Shown here: one piece after another, positions 9,891-17,954 of the stretch
How the letters are laid out: every line of letters begins with the position of its first letter
Position numbering within the stretch: the first letter of the stretch is position 1
Assembly (NCBI RefSeq): GCF_003614185.1
Contig: NZ_KZ987724.1
Span: forward strand, 321,512 to 385,511
Reading direction: 5' to 3'
DNA from: Paenibacillus aceti
Lineage (GTDB): Bacteria; Bacillota; Bacilli; Paenibacillales; Paenibacillaceae
DNA: 64,000 nucleotides
Program-made: the position numbers and the translations under genes
The notes under the pieces: model-generated
Told to the model about the DNA's origin: nothing
The model's database searches: none
The model's input: the letters and a program-made list of their open reading frames with translations, nothing else

Positions 9891-9954
9891 CGGGATGAAT
9901 TATTGTCCCAGGCCGCAGCAACTTAGTAAATCCGCGTGCAAAGGAGGAATAGAC

Positions 9955-10185
9955 TTGAATTTCACACAGGAAAAGACGTATACCCCCTTCATTGGCCCTT
10001 TTGATCCGTGTCCGCCTATACTGACCAAAACCTTCAGCACCCCACCTCAGTTATATATGCGCTTTCAGCCACCAAATCTGCCGCAGTTCAGTCCGCAGGA
10101 AGCCTTGAGACATGGAACATTATGGCCAGCATTATACAGCCCCTATGAGTCCCGCTGGGGGAAAGGAAGGCAGACGAATGAATGA
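9955..10185 (+). CDS. cotJA: CotJA spore coat-associated protein
   Basis: The 76-residue product contains the typical CotJA core: YTPFIGPFDPCPPI, LYMRFQPPNLPQFSP and LRHGTLWPALYSPY. The start chosen is TTG at 9955, because AAAGGAGG stands eight bases before it. The in-frame ATG at 9895 has no such site. It overlaps cotJB by eight bases. CotJ proteins assemble in the inner spore coat. Confidence 0.9.
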   Translation: MNFTQEKTYTPFIGPFDPCPPILTKTFSTPPQLYMRFQPPNLPQFSPQEALRHGTLWPALYSPYESRWGKGRQTNE

Positions 10186-10453
10186 GGTAATGAAGCCGCA
10201 TTGTGATCAGGAATTCTATGATCTGTTGGAGAAGCTTCAGGCGCTTGATTTCACGCTCGTCGAGTTGAATCTGTATCTGGATACTCATCCGGAGGATTTG
10301 AATGCGATCAAGCAATTTAATCAATTGGCATTGGAGAGACGGAACCTGGCCGATCATTTTCAGAAGTTGTACGGTCCCTTGCAGAATTTCGGGCATTCTT
10401 TCTCCAGGTATCCGTGGGAATGGGTTAATGTCCCATGGCCATGGCAGGTCTAG
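10178..10453 (+). CDS. cotJB: CotJB spore coat protein
   Basis: This 91-residue protein carries the CotJB pattern: FYDLLEKLQALDFTLVELNLYLDTHPED and an aromatic tail (YPWEWVNVPWPWQV). ATG at 10178 follows GGAAGG and overlaps the cotJA stop, which supports it over an ATG 66 bases upstream. It is the middle gene of cotJABC and is expressed in the mother cell during sporulation. Confidence 0.92.
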   Translation: MNEVMKPHCDQEFYDLLEKLQALDFTLVELNLYLDTHPEDLNAIKQFNQLALERRNLADHFQKLYGPLQNFGHSFSRYPWEWVNVPWPWQV

Positions 10454-10547
10454 GCCTGCCTTGATTCTCTGAAGCTTAAGCTTGGTGCTGGAAATGGTTC
10501 TTTTGAACATGTACTTAAGGTGAGCTAAAGGAGGTAAAGCATAGAAA

Positions 10548-11117
10548 ATGTGGGTATACGAGAAGAAGCTGCAATACCCCGTTCGTGTAGGTAAATGCGA
10601 TATCGGAATGGCGAAGCTGTTGCTGGAGCAGTACGGCGGTGCTGATGGGGAGCTTGCTGCTGCACTGCGTTATATGAACCAGAGATACACGATTCCGGAT
10701 AAAGTGATAGGGCTACTTACTGACATCTCCACCGAGGAATTTGCGCATCTAGAGATGATCGCCACCATGGTGTTCAAGCTCACGAAGGATGCTACTGTAG
10801 AGGAGCTTAGAGCTAACGGATTGGCCCCCCATTATGTTGCCCATGATAGCGCACTCTTCTATGAGAATGCCTCGGGGGTGCCGTTCACGGCGGCCTATAT
10901 CCAGGCCAAAGGCGATCCCATCGCTGACCTGTATGAAGATATCGCCGCTGAGGAGAAGGCCCGGGCTACATATCAATGGCTGATTGATATGACCGATGAC
11001 GTGGATCTGCAGGACAGCCTGAAGTTCCTGCGTGAGCGCGAGATCATCCATTCGCTGCGCTTCCGCGAGGCGGTCGAGATCTTGAAGGATGAGCAGGGAA
11101 AGAGGACAGTGTTCTAG
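10548..11117 (+). CDS. cotJC: CotJC, manganese-catalase-like spore coat protein
   Basis: This 189-residue protein matches CotJC and the four-helix manganese catalase family. The start is WVYEKKLQYPVRV. Di-metal ligand motifs are TDISTEEFAHLEM, DIAAEEKARATY and REIIHSLRFREAVE. It closes the spore-coat operon, with AAAGGAGG before the ATG and a terminator right after the stop. Confidence 0.93.
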   Translation: MWVYEKKLQYPVRVGKCDIGMAKLLLEQYGGADGELAAALRYMNQRYTIPDKVIGLLTDISTEEFAHLEMIATMVFKLTKDATVEELRANGLAPHYVAHDSALFYENASGVPFTAAYIQAKGDPIADLYEDIAAEEKARATYQWLIDMTDDVDLQDSLKFLREREIIHSLRFREAVEILKDEQGKRTVF

Positions 11118-13630: not shown

Positions 13631-13957
13631 TTAGCCCCGCCGTACTCTCCTCCTTACTCTTGTTTTCTTTATTCTTGTGCCCAGTATAATGAAAGCGGCA
13701 TAGATTAAGATGGCAATCGAATCGATTAACGTATTCGTAAGTGCCGAAACATCATAAAATGCAGTTACACTGAGAATGACCATCAGACGAATGAGCAGAA
13801 GTGACACGATCATCCACGCTGCAAACCGGATCTTAGATTTCTCACTTTGGAATGACAGGATAATCAATACTATGCCGAAAACCAGATTCTCAGCGGTGAT
13901 AATATGCCAGACATACGTAAGAGAAAAGTCCGCATACTGCATGATTTGAATATGCAT
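13631..13957 (-). CDS. Small multi-pass membrane protein, unknown function
   Basis: This 108-residue product has three hydrophobic segments and a strongly basic tail (RIKKTRVRRRVRRG), suggesting a cytoplasmic C-terminus. An upstream minus-strand frame (13957-14151) ends on its first base (TGATG). The two may be tandem small genes or one damaged gene. Confidence 0.5.
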   Translation of the reverse strand: MHIQIMQYADFSLTYVWHIITAENLVFGIVLIILSFQSEKSKIRFAAWMIVSLLLIRLMVILSVTAFYDVSALTNTLIDSIAILIYAAFIILGTRIKKTRVRRRVRRG

Positions 13958-14151
13958 CAAATCGACGATGTCGTCCCTAGAATACCTGCGATAAGAATTA
14001 TGTCCCCGAGACGGCGATACGATTCCAATACGGTAAGAAGACGTGTTTGAAATATCACCAAAACTATGTAGACTGCTGTAGATCTGACCTCATGAGGAAC
14101 GCATGGAAAAAGATACGAGAGTATACCCGGTATTAGCATCTCATTGTCCAA
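13957..14151 (-). CDS. Possible small membrane protein or upstream fragment
   Basis: This 64-residue frame starts with TTG and has one or two hydrophobic stretches (AVYIVLVIF, IILIAGILG). No ribosome site is visible. Its main support is the TGATG coupling to the next gene. Confidence 0.3.
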   Translation of the reverse strand: MDNEMLIPGILSYLFPCVPHEVRSTAVYIVLVIFQTRLLTVLESYRRLGDIILIAGILGTTSSI

Positions 14152-14272
14152 CGATGGAAATGGTCATAGAAAAACAGGAGACCACATATCATTAAACTGA
14201 ATTTCGTCGTTCGTGAGAATCAGCTTGAATAGTTCATTTAAGCTCGCAATGTTGGGAAGGAGTTGTGCAAGG

Positions 14273-15814
14273 ATGTCTCTTCAGGAGGAAGGTGTGCTTG
14301 CGATTGGTTCCGGCCGAATCCTGCTCTCTCTTGTTGAATCATGGAATGAATCCGGATTGTCTAATCTTGCGGTTTATGTCACTAACAAGGGATTAACAGA
14401 CATGGGAAAACTCAAAAAACTCCGCAATCCAAATCTAAGCAGTAAGACCGAGACTGCGTTGAAAATTATTGCTACGGCAGGAGATGAGAAGCTGAATTGG
14501 AGGTCGATTGTTCGGCCTTTTCAATTTATTTTATATGTTTCGGAGCATGGCGAATTGGAGGAGCTTCGGAGTGTTCAGCATGCTTGTATAGCAGAAAGGA
14601 AACAGATGCTTCCTGCCATCGCGATAAGAGGAATGGGAATGGCAGGCCCGCTGCTACATCCTGACGGAGATGGACACTGGGAGTCGGCATGGCTGCGAAT
14701 TCATTCGTCCGTCTTTCCCGAGACACGAACACCGGAGGTCCTCCCCACAGCGGGCGCAGGAATACTATCGAATCTTATTGTCCATGAATGGCATAAAGCG
14801 ATTATGGGTGAGCATGAATTGGACCATAGAAATCAATGCTTTTTACTTGACCCTATCACGTTAACCGGAAGCTGGCATTCTTTTCTGCCTCATCCTTTAG
14901 TATCCGGGTATGACGCAGCCCGTCCGATGAAACATATGGAGCTTAACTTAAGCATAGATCATGAACAGGTAAGTCCGGAGGTATGGTTTACTGCCTTCAA
15001 CCAACTGACTTCGACGGTAACAGGCATTTTTCATACATGGGAAGAGGCGGACTTAATCCAGCTTCCGTTGGCACAGTGTCTGGTTCAGCCTACAGATCCT
15101 TTGTCAAAAGAACCTGCACATCTTTTGCCAACCATTGTCCGTAGTGGATTAACGCATGTAGAGGCTCGGCTAGAGTCGGGACTGGCAGGGCTAGAAGCCT
15201 ATTTGGTCCGCATAATCCCACTGCTGTTTGCTGGCTTGCCTCCACATCAGCGAGAAGGAGTCAGCATCGGAGTAGGCCGAGATATAACTGAAGCCGTTGG
15301 GCGGGGAGTTAGGACTTATTTAACTAAAGAGTTAGGCAAGCGGATTTTATCTGAAGAGCCGACTGTTGTTCAAAGTACAGCATGTCCACAAATTGAAGAT
15401 GTCCGTTGCCATTATTATTTACAAGCGTTATCTACCCTAGAGGGGGAACCTCTTATTGCAATAGGTGAGCCGTTGCTTGGTTTTCCAACAGTGTGGGTCT
15501 ATTCGGATTCCTCGTGGTATGGCAGTGCAGACCTTAGTTTCACGCTTGCACTTCGCCAATCCCTACAGAAGGCGTTGAGTAAGTCCGGGCGCACTACGGT
15601 TTCACCTGTTCTTCAGAAGGATCATGAAGTGCAAAACATTACAATTTCTGATAGCGATCCTCTAAGATATAGTTCTTTGATGTCAACAGCCATTGAGACT
15701 ATGAAGCAATGCGATAAGCATCTTGAGGTGTTTGAACTGAACGGTGAATCTTTGTGGGGTAAAGGGCCGTTTGTAGCATACGGAGTAGTTCTCGGAGAGG
15801 AGGAATCCCCTTGA
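14273..15814 (+). CDS. Putative thiazole-containing bacteriocin maturation protein (ThiF-like, TOMM)
   Basis: This 513-residue protein matches the ThiF-like maturation protein family found with TOMM (thiazole/oxazole-modified microcin) clusters in Bacillus. The nucleotide-fold start VLAIGSGRILLSLVES stands almost at the N-terminus. From memory, family members have about 100 further residues before this, so the protein looks N-terminally short. ATG at 14273 is chosen for its GGAAGGAG site; the frame extends back to GTG at 14213 with no site. The stop overlaps the start of the cyclodehydratase gene by four bases (ATGA-type), indicating co-translation. Confidence 0.75.
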   Translation: MSLQEEGVLAIGSGRILLSLVESWNESGLSNLAVYVTNKGLTDMGKLKKLRNPNLSSKTETALKIIATAGDEKLNWRSIVRPFQFILYVSEHGELEELRSVQHACIAERKQMLPAIAIRGMGMAGPLLHPDGDGHWESAWLRIHSSVFPETRTPEVLPTAGAGILSNLIVHEWHKAIMGEHELDHRNQCFLLDPITLTGSWHSFLPHPLVSGYDAARPMKHMELNLSIDHEQVSPEVWFTAFNQLTSTVTGIFHTWEEADLIQLPLAQCLVQPTDPLSKEPAHLLPTIVRSGLTHVEARLESGLAGLEAYLVRIIPLLFAGLPPHQREGVSIGVGRDITEAVGRGVRTYLTKELGKRILSEEPTVVQSTACPQIEDVRCHYYLQALSTLEGEPLIAIGEPLLGFPTVWVYSDSSWYGSADLSFTLALRQSLQKALSKSGRTTVSPVLQKDHEVQNITISDSDPLRYSSLMSTAIETMKQCDKHLEVFELNGESLWGKGPFVAYGVVLGEEESP

Positions 15815-17745
15815 ATACTGTTGCTATTATTGGGGAGGGGATGCTTGCGGATGCCGTGTATAAGCGCCTGTCAGGGTTCTCACTTGTTCGAAGAAAGGAC
15901 TTCAGTGAAGATATACCCGCTGTAGACTTGGTATTGGTGCTGCAGGATGAGGATAACTCCTCCTATTATCTTGAAGCTGAACAGATGCTACGACCACGTG
16001 ATATTCCCTGGTTGTGTGCCTATGTCTCCTTGGGAGAAGGAATCATAGGGCCACTGGTCGTTCCGGGAACGACTGGATGCTTCCAATGTGCAGAAGCTAG
16101 GGTTTCTTTGGCAGGGAGCAATCGCAAAGAAGTCAAGGATTTGCTTATGAGGCTCGTGTCTGATGATTCTGTACCCCATCATACTGCTGAAATATCTCCG
16201 ACAGGGGCTGGTTATATGGCGCATATTATCTCAGCGGAAACGGATAAGGTGCTGCGGGGCGACAGAGCGAGTACGGAAGAGCATCTCTATTTGATCAACT
16301 TGAGTAATTTGAACAGCACAATCCATTATGTCATGCCGCTTGGGACTTGCTCGGTTTGTGGGCAATTGCCGGATGATTCACCGAAATTAGCGGAGATATC
16401 ACTACAGAAGTGTCTAAAACGGAGCAACAGCTATCGCTGCCGCGGGGTGAGTGATTTGAAGGAGGTTCTGCTCAGAGATTATTGGGACAGTCGTACCGGA
16501 ATCTTTAATGATAAGAAGTGGGGGCTTGACACTACCTTTGCCAGTGCCGCTATAAATCTTCCTTTGGGTTTCTACGATGAGATCACAGGGGGGCATTCTC
16601 ACTCATATGTAGATAGCGAGCTCGCGGGGATATTAGAAGGGCTGGAGCGTTATTGCGGTGTGGCTCCACATGGTAAACAAACGATCGTGCAGGGCAGTTA
16701 TTCCCAATTTAAGGGTACTGCGCTGGACCCGTCTATGGTAGGGCTTCATGCAGAGGAGCAATACGAGCAACCTGACTTTCCCTTCACCCCGTATGATCCT
16801 GATTCTCTAATGGAATGGGTCTGGGGATATTCGTTCCTACAGGCACGTCCGATTCTGGTTCCCAAACTGTTGGCTTATTACAGTCTGGGCGAAGGAGAGG
16901 GCTTTGTATATGAAACCTCTAACGGGTGCGCACTGGGAGGAAGCTTAGAGGAAGCCATCTTGTACGGGATTTTCGAGGTGGTTGAGCGGGACTCCTTTCT
17001 GTTGACCTGGTATGCAAGACTACAGGTTCCACGGCTTGACTATAGTTCATCGGGGGATTCGGAGCTGATCCTGATGATCCAACGTTTAAAAGCAGTTACG
17101 GGTTATGAAGTGAACTTGTACAATACCACGATGGAAAATGGGATTCCGAGCATATGGGCATTAGCAAAAGTAGGGACGAAAGGCAGCGTGAACCTCATCT
17201 GCGCTGCTGGAGCTCATCTCGATCCGATTCGGGCAGCCAAGAGCGCCATACATGAGCTGGCGGGCATGATCCCGATGGCTGAAAGGAGATTGAAGGAACG
17301 CAGACTAGAAGCTGAAGCTATGCTTGATGACTCGTTCCTTGTGCAGCAAATGGAAGATCACTCCTTGCTCTATAGCTTGCCACAGGCAGAGGAACGGCTT
17401 CACTTCTTATTAGACGAGGGAAACCCTGTCCGTACTTTTGCAGAGGAGTTCCATTCACTGACATGGCAAGAAGATTTAACAGAGGATTTAAAACAAATCC
17501 TTCGGGCTTTCCTCGGTCTTAAGATGGATGTCATTGTAGTTGACCAATCATCAAGTGAGACGCTCCGCAACGGGCTGCGTTGTGTGAAGGTGCTCATACC
17601 AGGAATGCTACCCATGACATTCGGACATCATCTTACCCGGCTCACTGGTCTGAATAGGGTACTGGATGTACCGATGAAGCTAGGTTACGCAAATCACAGG
17701 CTGACTCCGCAGGAGCTTAATCCTTATCCGCATCCATTTCCGTAA
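15811..17745 (+). CDS. Fused TOMM leader-binding/YcaO cyclodehydratase
   Basis: This 644-residue protein joins an N-terminal E1-like ocin-ThiF domain to a YcaO domain. Cys pairs CFQC (near residue 89) and CSVC (near residue 183) look like the zinc-binding pairs of cyclodehydratase C-proteins. The YcaO ATP-binding region includes ALGGSLEEAILYGIFEVVERDSF, with the Glu and Arg residues typical of the family. The sequence ends NPYPHPFP, the PxPxP tail seen in azoline-forming YcaO enzymes. The expected reaction is ATP-dependent cyclodehydration of Cys, Ser or Thr in a precursor peptide to azolines. No dehydrogenase (SagB-like) gene is in the window. Confidence 0.9.
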   Translation: MNTVAIIGEGMLADAVYKRLSGFSLVRRKDFSEDIPAVDLVLVLQDEDNSSYYLEAEQMLRPRDIPWLCAYVSLGEGIIGPLVVPGTTGCFQCAEARVSLAGSNRKEVKDLLMRLVSDDSVPHHTAEISPTGAGYMAHIISAETDKVLRGDRASTEEHLYLINLSNLNSTIHYVMPLGTCSVCGQLPDDSPKLAEISLQKCLKRSNSYRCRGVSDLKEVLLRDYWDSRTGIFNDKKWGLDTTFASAAINLPLGFYDEITGGHSHSYVDSELAGILEGLERYCGVAPHGKQTIVQGSYSQFKGTALDPSMVGLHAEEQYEQPDFPFTPYDPDSLMEWVWGYSFLQARPILVPKLLAYYSLGEGEGFVYETSNGCALGGSLEEAILYGIFEVVERDSFLLTWYARLQVPRLDYSSSGDSELILMIQRLKAVTGYEVNLYNTTMENGIPSIWALAKVGTKGSVNLICAAGAHLDPIRAAKSAIHELAGMIPMAERRLKERRLEAEAMLDDSFLVQQMEDHSLLYSLPQAEERLHFLLDEGNPVRTFAEEFHSLTWQEDLTEDLKQILRAFLGLKMDVIVVDQSSSETLRNGLRCVKVLIPGMLPMTFGHHLTRLTGLNRVLDVPMKLGYANHRLTPQELNPYPHPFP

Positions 17746-17837
17746 ATATTCGCCGATTTTTCTAGACGAGAGTCCAATCCATAAGTCGTCTACAATCATA
17801 CAATTTAGAATAAACAGGTGAAGGGAGGAATATCGCG

Positions 17838-17954
17838 ATGGGAGAACTGGGGGGAATCGGAAGCTGTAGCTGTGGTGGTGGCTTGTTTACAAGTACGGGT
17901 GTAATCCTCGTTTTATTCATTTTGTTGGTTATTATTAGTCGTACATTTATTTGA
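17838..17954 (+). CDS. Tiny Cys/Gly-containing membrane peptide (YjcZ-like)
   Basis: This 38-residue product has AAGGGAGG nine bases before its ATG. The sequence has a short Gly/Cys head (GGIGSCSCGGG) followed by a single hydrophobic segment (VILVLFILLVIIS). That layout resembles the YjcZ/tiny-TM family of sporulation-associated peptides. It lies 92 bp after the YcaO gene. It could also be considered as a TOMM substrate, but two cysteines before a membrane segment is not a usual core. Confidence 0.65.
   Translation: MGELGGIGSCSCGGGLFTSTGVILVLFILLVIISRTFI

Follow-up and report, generated by a model that had tools for sequence, protein, structure and literature searches.

A small azoline-type locus of Paenibacillus aceti has likely exchanged the customary substrates of its enzymes for leaderless tiny peptides. 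The locus occupies positions 14273 to 17954 of a 64,000-nucleotide stretch of contig NZ_KZ987724.1 (positions 321,512 to 385,511 of the forward strand), referred to here as the window. It consists of an F protein, a fused YcaO protein, and a tiny peptide; we read the first two as a minimal F-dependent cyclodehydratase that changed clients. In Paenibacillus, this pair appears to have shed the part with which such enzymes usually recognize peptides and to work now on tiny, hydrophobic, sporulation-like peptides. An earlier note on the window had described an azoline maturation pair whose precursor was either a Cys-Xaa-Xaa bacteriocin gene encoded elsewhere or an unusual peptide of the locus itself. 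The azoline pair finds support and the distant bacteriocin precursor does not; the fallback, an unusual peptide at the locus, was the better half of the proposal. The precursor is probably not missing: the tiny gene at 17838 to 17954, together with dispersed paralogues, encodes the likely substrates.

All three genes lie where the earlier note placed them, on the + strand. The gene for the ThiF-like F protein (14273 to 15814) has its best start at ATG 14273, with GGAAGGAG at 14255 to 14262, within a longest open reading frame that begins at GTG 14213. Its product scores 371 bits with TIGR03693, short of the required 561.9; the match begins at profile position 130, the N-terminal domain being absent. 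The start of the YcaO gene (15811 to 17745) overlaps the F stop. Its product fuses a truncated C domain (TIGR03882, residues 65 to 232, 113 bits) to a YcaO cyclodehydratase domain that matches the full length of TIGR03604 (residues 261 to 644, 391.8 bits, cut-off 219.25) and PF02624 (275 bits). The protein carries two CxxC pairs, CFQC at 90 to 93 and CSVC at 180 to 183, and ends in NPYPHPFP; the four cysteines and PHPF do not vary among 14 aligned YcaO proteins. LynD, MusD, and TruD are the nearest structures in PDB, and the LynD alignment reaches the last residues of LynD. This is a YcaO of the peptide-cyclodehydratase kind, which bears out the azoline-type (TOMM) assignment. Among the matches listed, the closest named relative is the YcaO of P. 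macquariensis (87% identity).

The tiny gene (17838 to 17954) begins 93 bp past the YcaO gene and is preceded by GGGAGG. Its 38 codons specify MGELGGIGSCSCGGGLFTSTGVILVLFILLVIISRTFI, a candidate substrate without a leader, with a Ser-Cys core and a hydrophobic tail. It is no chance reading frame: relatives have a gene with like start, core, and tail next to the pair. The product resembles the YjcZ family; it scores 12.3 of 21.35 bits against TIGR01732 and 14.2 of 21 bits against PF09680, below both curated cut-offs.

Recognition of substrates by F-type enzymes ordinarily depends on the RRE domain, which is fused to the F family in heterocycloanthracin and thiopeptide clusters, where F binds the leader (PMC7470986; PMC4603692). 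We built an RRE profile from 45 long F proteins, using the first 125 residues of each. The RRE-domain alignment matches an 86-residue PbtF chain in PDB, 8t19 (E 7e-12), which we take to be the PbtF RRE. We compared 88 loci, namely the best 80 from the longer list of a named-genome scan, the window, and 7 loci from genomes of the genus; same or sister strains are included. They were sorted into 33 without an intact RRE on F (RRE-less; stretches of 12 to 20 kb) and 55 of heterocycloanthracin type (RRE+).

The profile was found in 54 of the 55 RRE+ loci, the exception being L203, with an F fragment of only 43 residues. Thirty-one of the 33 RRE-less loci have an F protein of their own (L160 and L166 do not); no trace of the domain was found on 29 of these, and fragments persist on 2. 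In L157, the fragment covers profile positions 94 to 125. In L163, positions 1 to 37 and 79 to 125 are retained on an F gene that runs on the - strand from about 7570, and positions 38 to 78 are gone as if by an in-frame deletion; this protein may be an intermediate of RRE loss. Translated in 6 frames over the whole stretch, neither the window nor most of the 33 RRE-less loci gave a match; those in L134, L201, and L166 belong to a second, complete cluster, and a match at E 0.085 in L144 lies away from the pair. We also considered an RRE supplied in trans, but found none in the organism's own genome at E up to 10, whereas 3 positive-control genomes gave E below 1e-66 (genomes G037 and G025 gave no match). 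We likewise rejected the idea that truncation or a frameshift had damaged the F gene of the window, the short form being normal in the genus and having its own start.

Loss of the RRE within the RRE-less group is the simpler reading of this distribution. Among 5 outgroup proteins, the F candidates of a Streptomyces locus (L452, E 2.5e-11) and a Lactobacillus locus (L454, E 3e-6) match the profile, and the other 3, one of them the F candidate of L453, gave no match. When all RRE-less rows were forced together in a tree that is rough, with long branches for L053 and the outgroups, p-AU was 0.48, so that 1 loss and several losses both fit.

A second difference concerns oxidation. With the SagB-type B protein of L203 as query, B proteins turned up in every RRE+ locus but L192 (54 of 55) and in 3 of 33 RRE-less loci (L134, L166, and L201), each time behind the YcaO of the second cluster. 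According to PMC4603692, a B protein lies inside all heterocycloanthracin clusters compared there. The second clusters of P. filicis (L134), P. piri (L201), and P. hemerocallicola (L166) are complete and of heterocycloanthracin type (RRE+ F, YcaO, and B); they adjoin an RRE-less pair or a lone YcaO, so the 2 types coexist side by side. Neither a dehydrogenase nor an exporter was seen adjoining the pair in the window, whether by eye among the open reading frames, in profile scans, or in the B-protein search, in agreement with the earlier note.

The third difference is the peptide. A tiny peptide with an [ST]C core occurs in 30 of the 33 RRE-less loci; a similar tiny peptide occurs in 2 of the 55 RRE+ loci, or in 4 under laxer tail criteria (L154, L174, L198, and L202), and every one of these is devoid of cysteine. 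In the window and in most loci of the genus, the peptide gene lies approximately 70 to 130 bp behind YcaO. Elsewhere it is divergent upstream of YcaO (L049 to L051), divergent upstream of F (L058), a few kb off (L140, L157, and L163), or present in several copies, with 5 on both sides in L053. Some loci also stand out in their enzymes: P. ferrarius (L160) has YcaO and 2 tiny Ser-Cys peptides with no F protein within 8 kb flanks, and in L049 to L051 the order is YcaO then F, with an F of 646 to 662 aa that matches the profile in 3 separate stretches, as though interrupted by inserts. Other flanking genes do not recur comparably, the largest other sense-like cluster reaching only 12 of 33 RRE-less loci. 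On profile and alignment evidence, RRE-less loci thus differ from RRE+ loci in 3 linked respects, in that they lack an intact RRE on F, lack a dehydrogenase of their own, and have a Ser-Cys peptide. By the same evidence, the window conforms, with an F protein that lacks an RRE, no such RRE in the genome, no dehydrogenase in the locus, and a linked peptide that lacks a canonical leader.

Paralogues of the tiny peptide allow the proposed substrates to be examined across the genus. YcaO is present in 15 of 41 Paenibacillus genomes, with an intact frame in 13; it is frameshifted in G023 and truncated in G014, which also has a stop in F. Almost always, the pair has beside it a tiny gene whose product carries this hydrophobic tail and whose cysteine core varies (examples of the core are GSCSCGGG, GSCSCSCGG, GSCHG, and GGCSCAG). 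Related tiny peptides, 4 to 16 per genome, occur in all 41 genomes, pair or no pair. Among dispersed copies, the core contains [ST]C in 24 of 78 from genomes with an intact pair and in 0 of 106 from genomes that have no pair (Fisher 1.0e-10); counted by genome, a dispersed [ST]C copy is found in 12 of 13 with an intact pair and in 0 of 25 without one. The Gly-Cys control motif is indifferent to the pair (16 of 78 versus 20 of 106, P 0.85). Cysteine in any context was considered as the signature and is weaker (46 of 78 versus 36 of 106, P 0.0009); the sharp signal is [ST]C. Ser-Cys forms of the hydrophobic-tailed peptide accompany the pair, as judged from these translations, both beside it and dispersed.

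These figures count distinct peptides per genome and require only an upstream Met, with no ribosome-site filter; such a filter dropped some copies (for example L074, L093, and L095), and the unfiltered recount is cited. In the 13 intact-pair genomes, 78 dispersed and 17 adjacent distinct peptides were read, against 109 matches; in 26 genomes without the pair, 106 distinct peptides were read against 164 matches, G027 contributing none. Copies were fetched blind to their cores, and part of them had been ranked by likeness to pair-adjacent peptides. The pair changes state at least 7 times on a gyrB tree. In 6 independent contrasts on this tree, [ST]C and the pair agree in direction in an average of 5.7 and disagree in 0; G004 was scored 1 by hand (L095), with which the unfiltered count agrees, and G023 was excluded. 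G014, with its broken pair, has lost the adjacent copy and has [ST]C in 0 of 7 copies, and its GGCGCGG copy appears to be the counterpart of a GGCSCSCGAG copy in the sister genome G024. In G008, G031, G003, and G024 the peptide family is expanded, to 11 to 16 matches each, and the number of GSC repeats varies between similar copies (GSCGSC versus GSCGSCGSC).

Several observations weigh against a change of clients. Three RRE-less loci (L143, L144, and L201) have no tiny [ST]C peptide within the stretch examined; for 2 of these, P. sp. NAIST15-1 (L143) and P. alvei (L144), the search covered approximately 18 kb around an RRE-less pair, and the substrate may be encoded elsewhere. Some pair-adjacent cores have a single cysteine. 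Among dispersed copies, 54 of 78 in pair genomes lack [ST]C, and 36 of 106 in genomes without the pair have cysteine in other contexts. G006 has no dispersed [ST]C copy except one with an M-S-C start, and G023, with its frameshifted YcaO, keeps 1 adjacent and 1 dispersed [ST]C copy, which could reflect a recent break or a sequencing error. The sign test on the contrasts is barely significant (median P 0.031, range 0.031 to 0.0625), and its median P is 0.0625 when G004 is scored by the stricter filter. Genomes that lack the pair also conserve the hydrophobic tail, which therefore serves a function apart from the pair; that it is conserved does not in itself demonstrate recognition by the enzymes. 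The resemblance to YjcZ, too, stays below both curated cut-offs. SagB-like genes lie near a second YcaO of the genome, a point to which we return below.

Expression offers a further indication. The enzyme operon is preceded by a putative sigmaE-like promoter, TCATAGA-N14-CATATCAT (14164 to 14192, + strand), and the peptide gene by a putative sigmaK/sigmaE-like promoter, GTCCAATC-N17-CATACAAT (17772 to 17804, + strand); both fit the consensus of mother-cell sporulation sigma factors. Of 24 RRE-less loci, 20 have the element CATANNNT no more than 130 nt ahead of the conserved F start (mean 2.9 and maximum 7 in 200 shuffles), and 127 of 206 members of the peptide family have it in the preceding 70 nt (shuffle mean 17.1, maximum 29), the shuffles preserving mononucleotide but not dinucleotide content. 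A GTCCAATC-like block approximately 17 nt before CATACAAT or a variant recurs upstream of many pair-adjacent copies. Thus, enzymes and peptides alike carry what look like mother-cell -10 elements, an indication of expression during sporulation. PMC517825 places the B. subtilis yjcZ gene in the sigmaK regulon.

The same elements lend themselves to another explanation: that the tiny peptide is one normal sporulation peptide among others, lying next to the pair on account of a shared part in sporulation, and that the true target of the pair in the mother cell is another molecule. The family is found regardless of the pair, and its members share the sporulation-like -10 element. Yet adjacency is kept through differing arrangements, no other flanking gene recurs as widely, and [ST]C in distant copies is confined to genomes that have the pair or once had it. 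We regard this explanation as unlikely.

Less probable again, and very unlikely in our estimate, is a heterocycloanthracin-like bacteriocin locus with its Cys-Xaa-Xaa precursor elsewhere, as the earlier note had favored. The enzyme families are identical, and distal precursors are known for the group (PMC2674419; PMC4603692). However, the best match to TIGR03601 in the whole genome scores 15.1 bits (cut-off 35) and contains a stop, in a search where none of 14 control genomes passed the cut-off and which therefore has no positive control. The RRE is lost, leaving F without its leader-binding domain, and the locus lacks the B protein that nearly all RRE+ relatives possess.

A further alternative, to which we give slightly less credence than to a bacteriocin locus, is that the pair installs another YcaO modification (a thioamide or a macroamidine) or draws on a dehydrogenase in trans to make thiazoles. 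YcaO proteins catalyze several reactions. The genome has 3 SagB matches, all under the cut-off and away from the locus, 2 of them around the second YcaO, so that oxidation in trans is possible. Against other chemistry, the nearest structures are azoline formers, TIGR03604 is matched over its cut-off, and cysteine after Ser/Thr covaries with the pair. The second YcaO belongs to another azoline-type cluster (G000:C1, approximately 4933100 to 4942100; L055:7113-16083), with genes for a nitroreductase-like protein, a ThiF-like C protein, a YcaO ending in SPHPFS, and a ComQ-like polyprenyl synthase. A protein upstream of the ComQ-like gene overlaps the best SagB match, and a sensor kinase and a response regulator follow. 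With names taken from reading translations and from the SagB search, it looks like a cluster for a modified signaling peptide. Finally, that the pair is a decaying relic without function can hardly be right: broken copies exist in G014 and G023, but the YcaO frame is intact in most carriers and both genes are under purifying selection (dN/dS against 6 relatives 0.22 to 0.34 for F and 0.11 to 0.23 for YcaO).

If the pair did turn to leaderless peptides, its modification, mode of recognition, and function can be outlined as follows. F and YcaO would form a complex, as PMC4603692 reports for heterocycloanthracins. YcaO would use ATP to cyclize cysteines after Ser or Thr, perhaps also after Ala or Gly in some copies, yielding thiazolines. 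These would stay unoxidized owing to the absence of a dedicated dehydrogenase, making thiazoline, not thiazole, the simplest product. Without an RRE, the usual reading of an N-terminal leader is impossible for the pair, and the candidate substrates have no leader. Recognition would involve the peptide itself, with the tail, [F/W]TSTGxILVLFILLVI, serving as a C-terminal "follower", or would involve the membrane or the Gly-rich start. The C-terminal hydrophobic tail is the most conserved part of the substrate, which makes a follower-like or membrane-guided mode the natural proposal. The mother cell would make the enzymes no later than the peptides, and the modified peptides would reside in the membrane of the forespore or coat; timing and location are suggested by the promoter-like elements and by sigmaK control of B. 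subtilis yjcZ. For the role of the thiazolines in the spore, masked thiols or metal- or oxidant-related coat chemistry are guesses. There is precedent in heterocycloanthracins for 1 enzyme set serving distant peptide genes (PMC2674419). Taken whole, the proposal of a leaderless developmental system, in which an RRE-less pair thiazolinates many dispersed membrane micropeptides of the spore in the mother cell, guided by tail or membrane, has in our judgment an even chance of being correct.

Comparison with known systems helps to place the locus. The fused C-D cyclodehydratase without its N-terminal ~100 aa is part of the heterocycloanthracin definition in PMC4603692, and it is found here. The other 3 of 4 features tested, an RRE-bearing F, a B protein, and a TIGR03601 precursor, are not; leaderless hydrophobic-tailed peptides are present instead. 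The locus shares TIGR03693 F and a fused YcaO with truncated C domain with F-dependent azoline clusters of Bacillales, and the RRE+ YcaO proteins are 54% to 58% identical to the query set among the matches listed. The SagD-type YcaO with its proline-rich C-terminus also agrees with the broad azoline-YcaO (TOMM/LAP D) definition. On these matches, the enzymes are F-dependent azoline enzymes by family, but the locus itself departs from the heterocycloanthracin definition in most of the features tested. Thiopeptide loci of Streptomyces (L452) and Lactobacillus (L454) share the 2-protein logic of F and YcaO; their candidate F proteins bear an RRE, and the loci have lantibiotic-type dehydratases, with a pyridine synthase in L452 and an annotated thiazolyl-peptide precursor in L454. 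Microcin B17, set beside the window peptide by description, has a modified core that is likewise rich in Gly, Ser, and Cys; it differs from the peptide of the window in its long N-terminal leader, its separate B, C, and D enzymes, its exporter, and its immunity. Members of the YjcZ family are tiny, with a Gly-rich start and a single hydrophobic tail, and they differ from the window peptide in that the latter scores below the family cut-offs and has a Ser-Cys core tied to the enzyme pair. In open-access literature, covered by title and the start of the abstract and with subscription papers and bioRxiv outside that scope, we found neither a mention of modification of the YjcZ family nor a link between azoline or YcaO enzymes and YjcZ-type or spore peptides.

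Two other parts of the window deserve mention. Just upstream of the F gene, at 13631 to 14151 on the - strand, 2 abutting open reading frames in different frames are possibly the pieces of a single frameshifted gene for a membrane protein. At 9895 to 11117 lie 3 small genes that resemble the cotJ spore-coat operon; the last matches manganese catalase, under the cut-off.

Azoline enzymes are familiar chiefly from the making of antibiotics, for which substrates are found through an N-terminal leader and the RRE. If our reading is true, the locus would represent a chemical or structural modification of the spore in place of an antibiotic, and an F-dependent cyclodehydratase that chooses substrates independently of the RRE. 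It would also mean a post-translational modification for YjcZ-like peptides, and it would explain why "no precursor" is seen at such loci in Paenibacillus.

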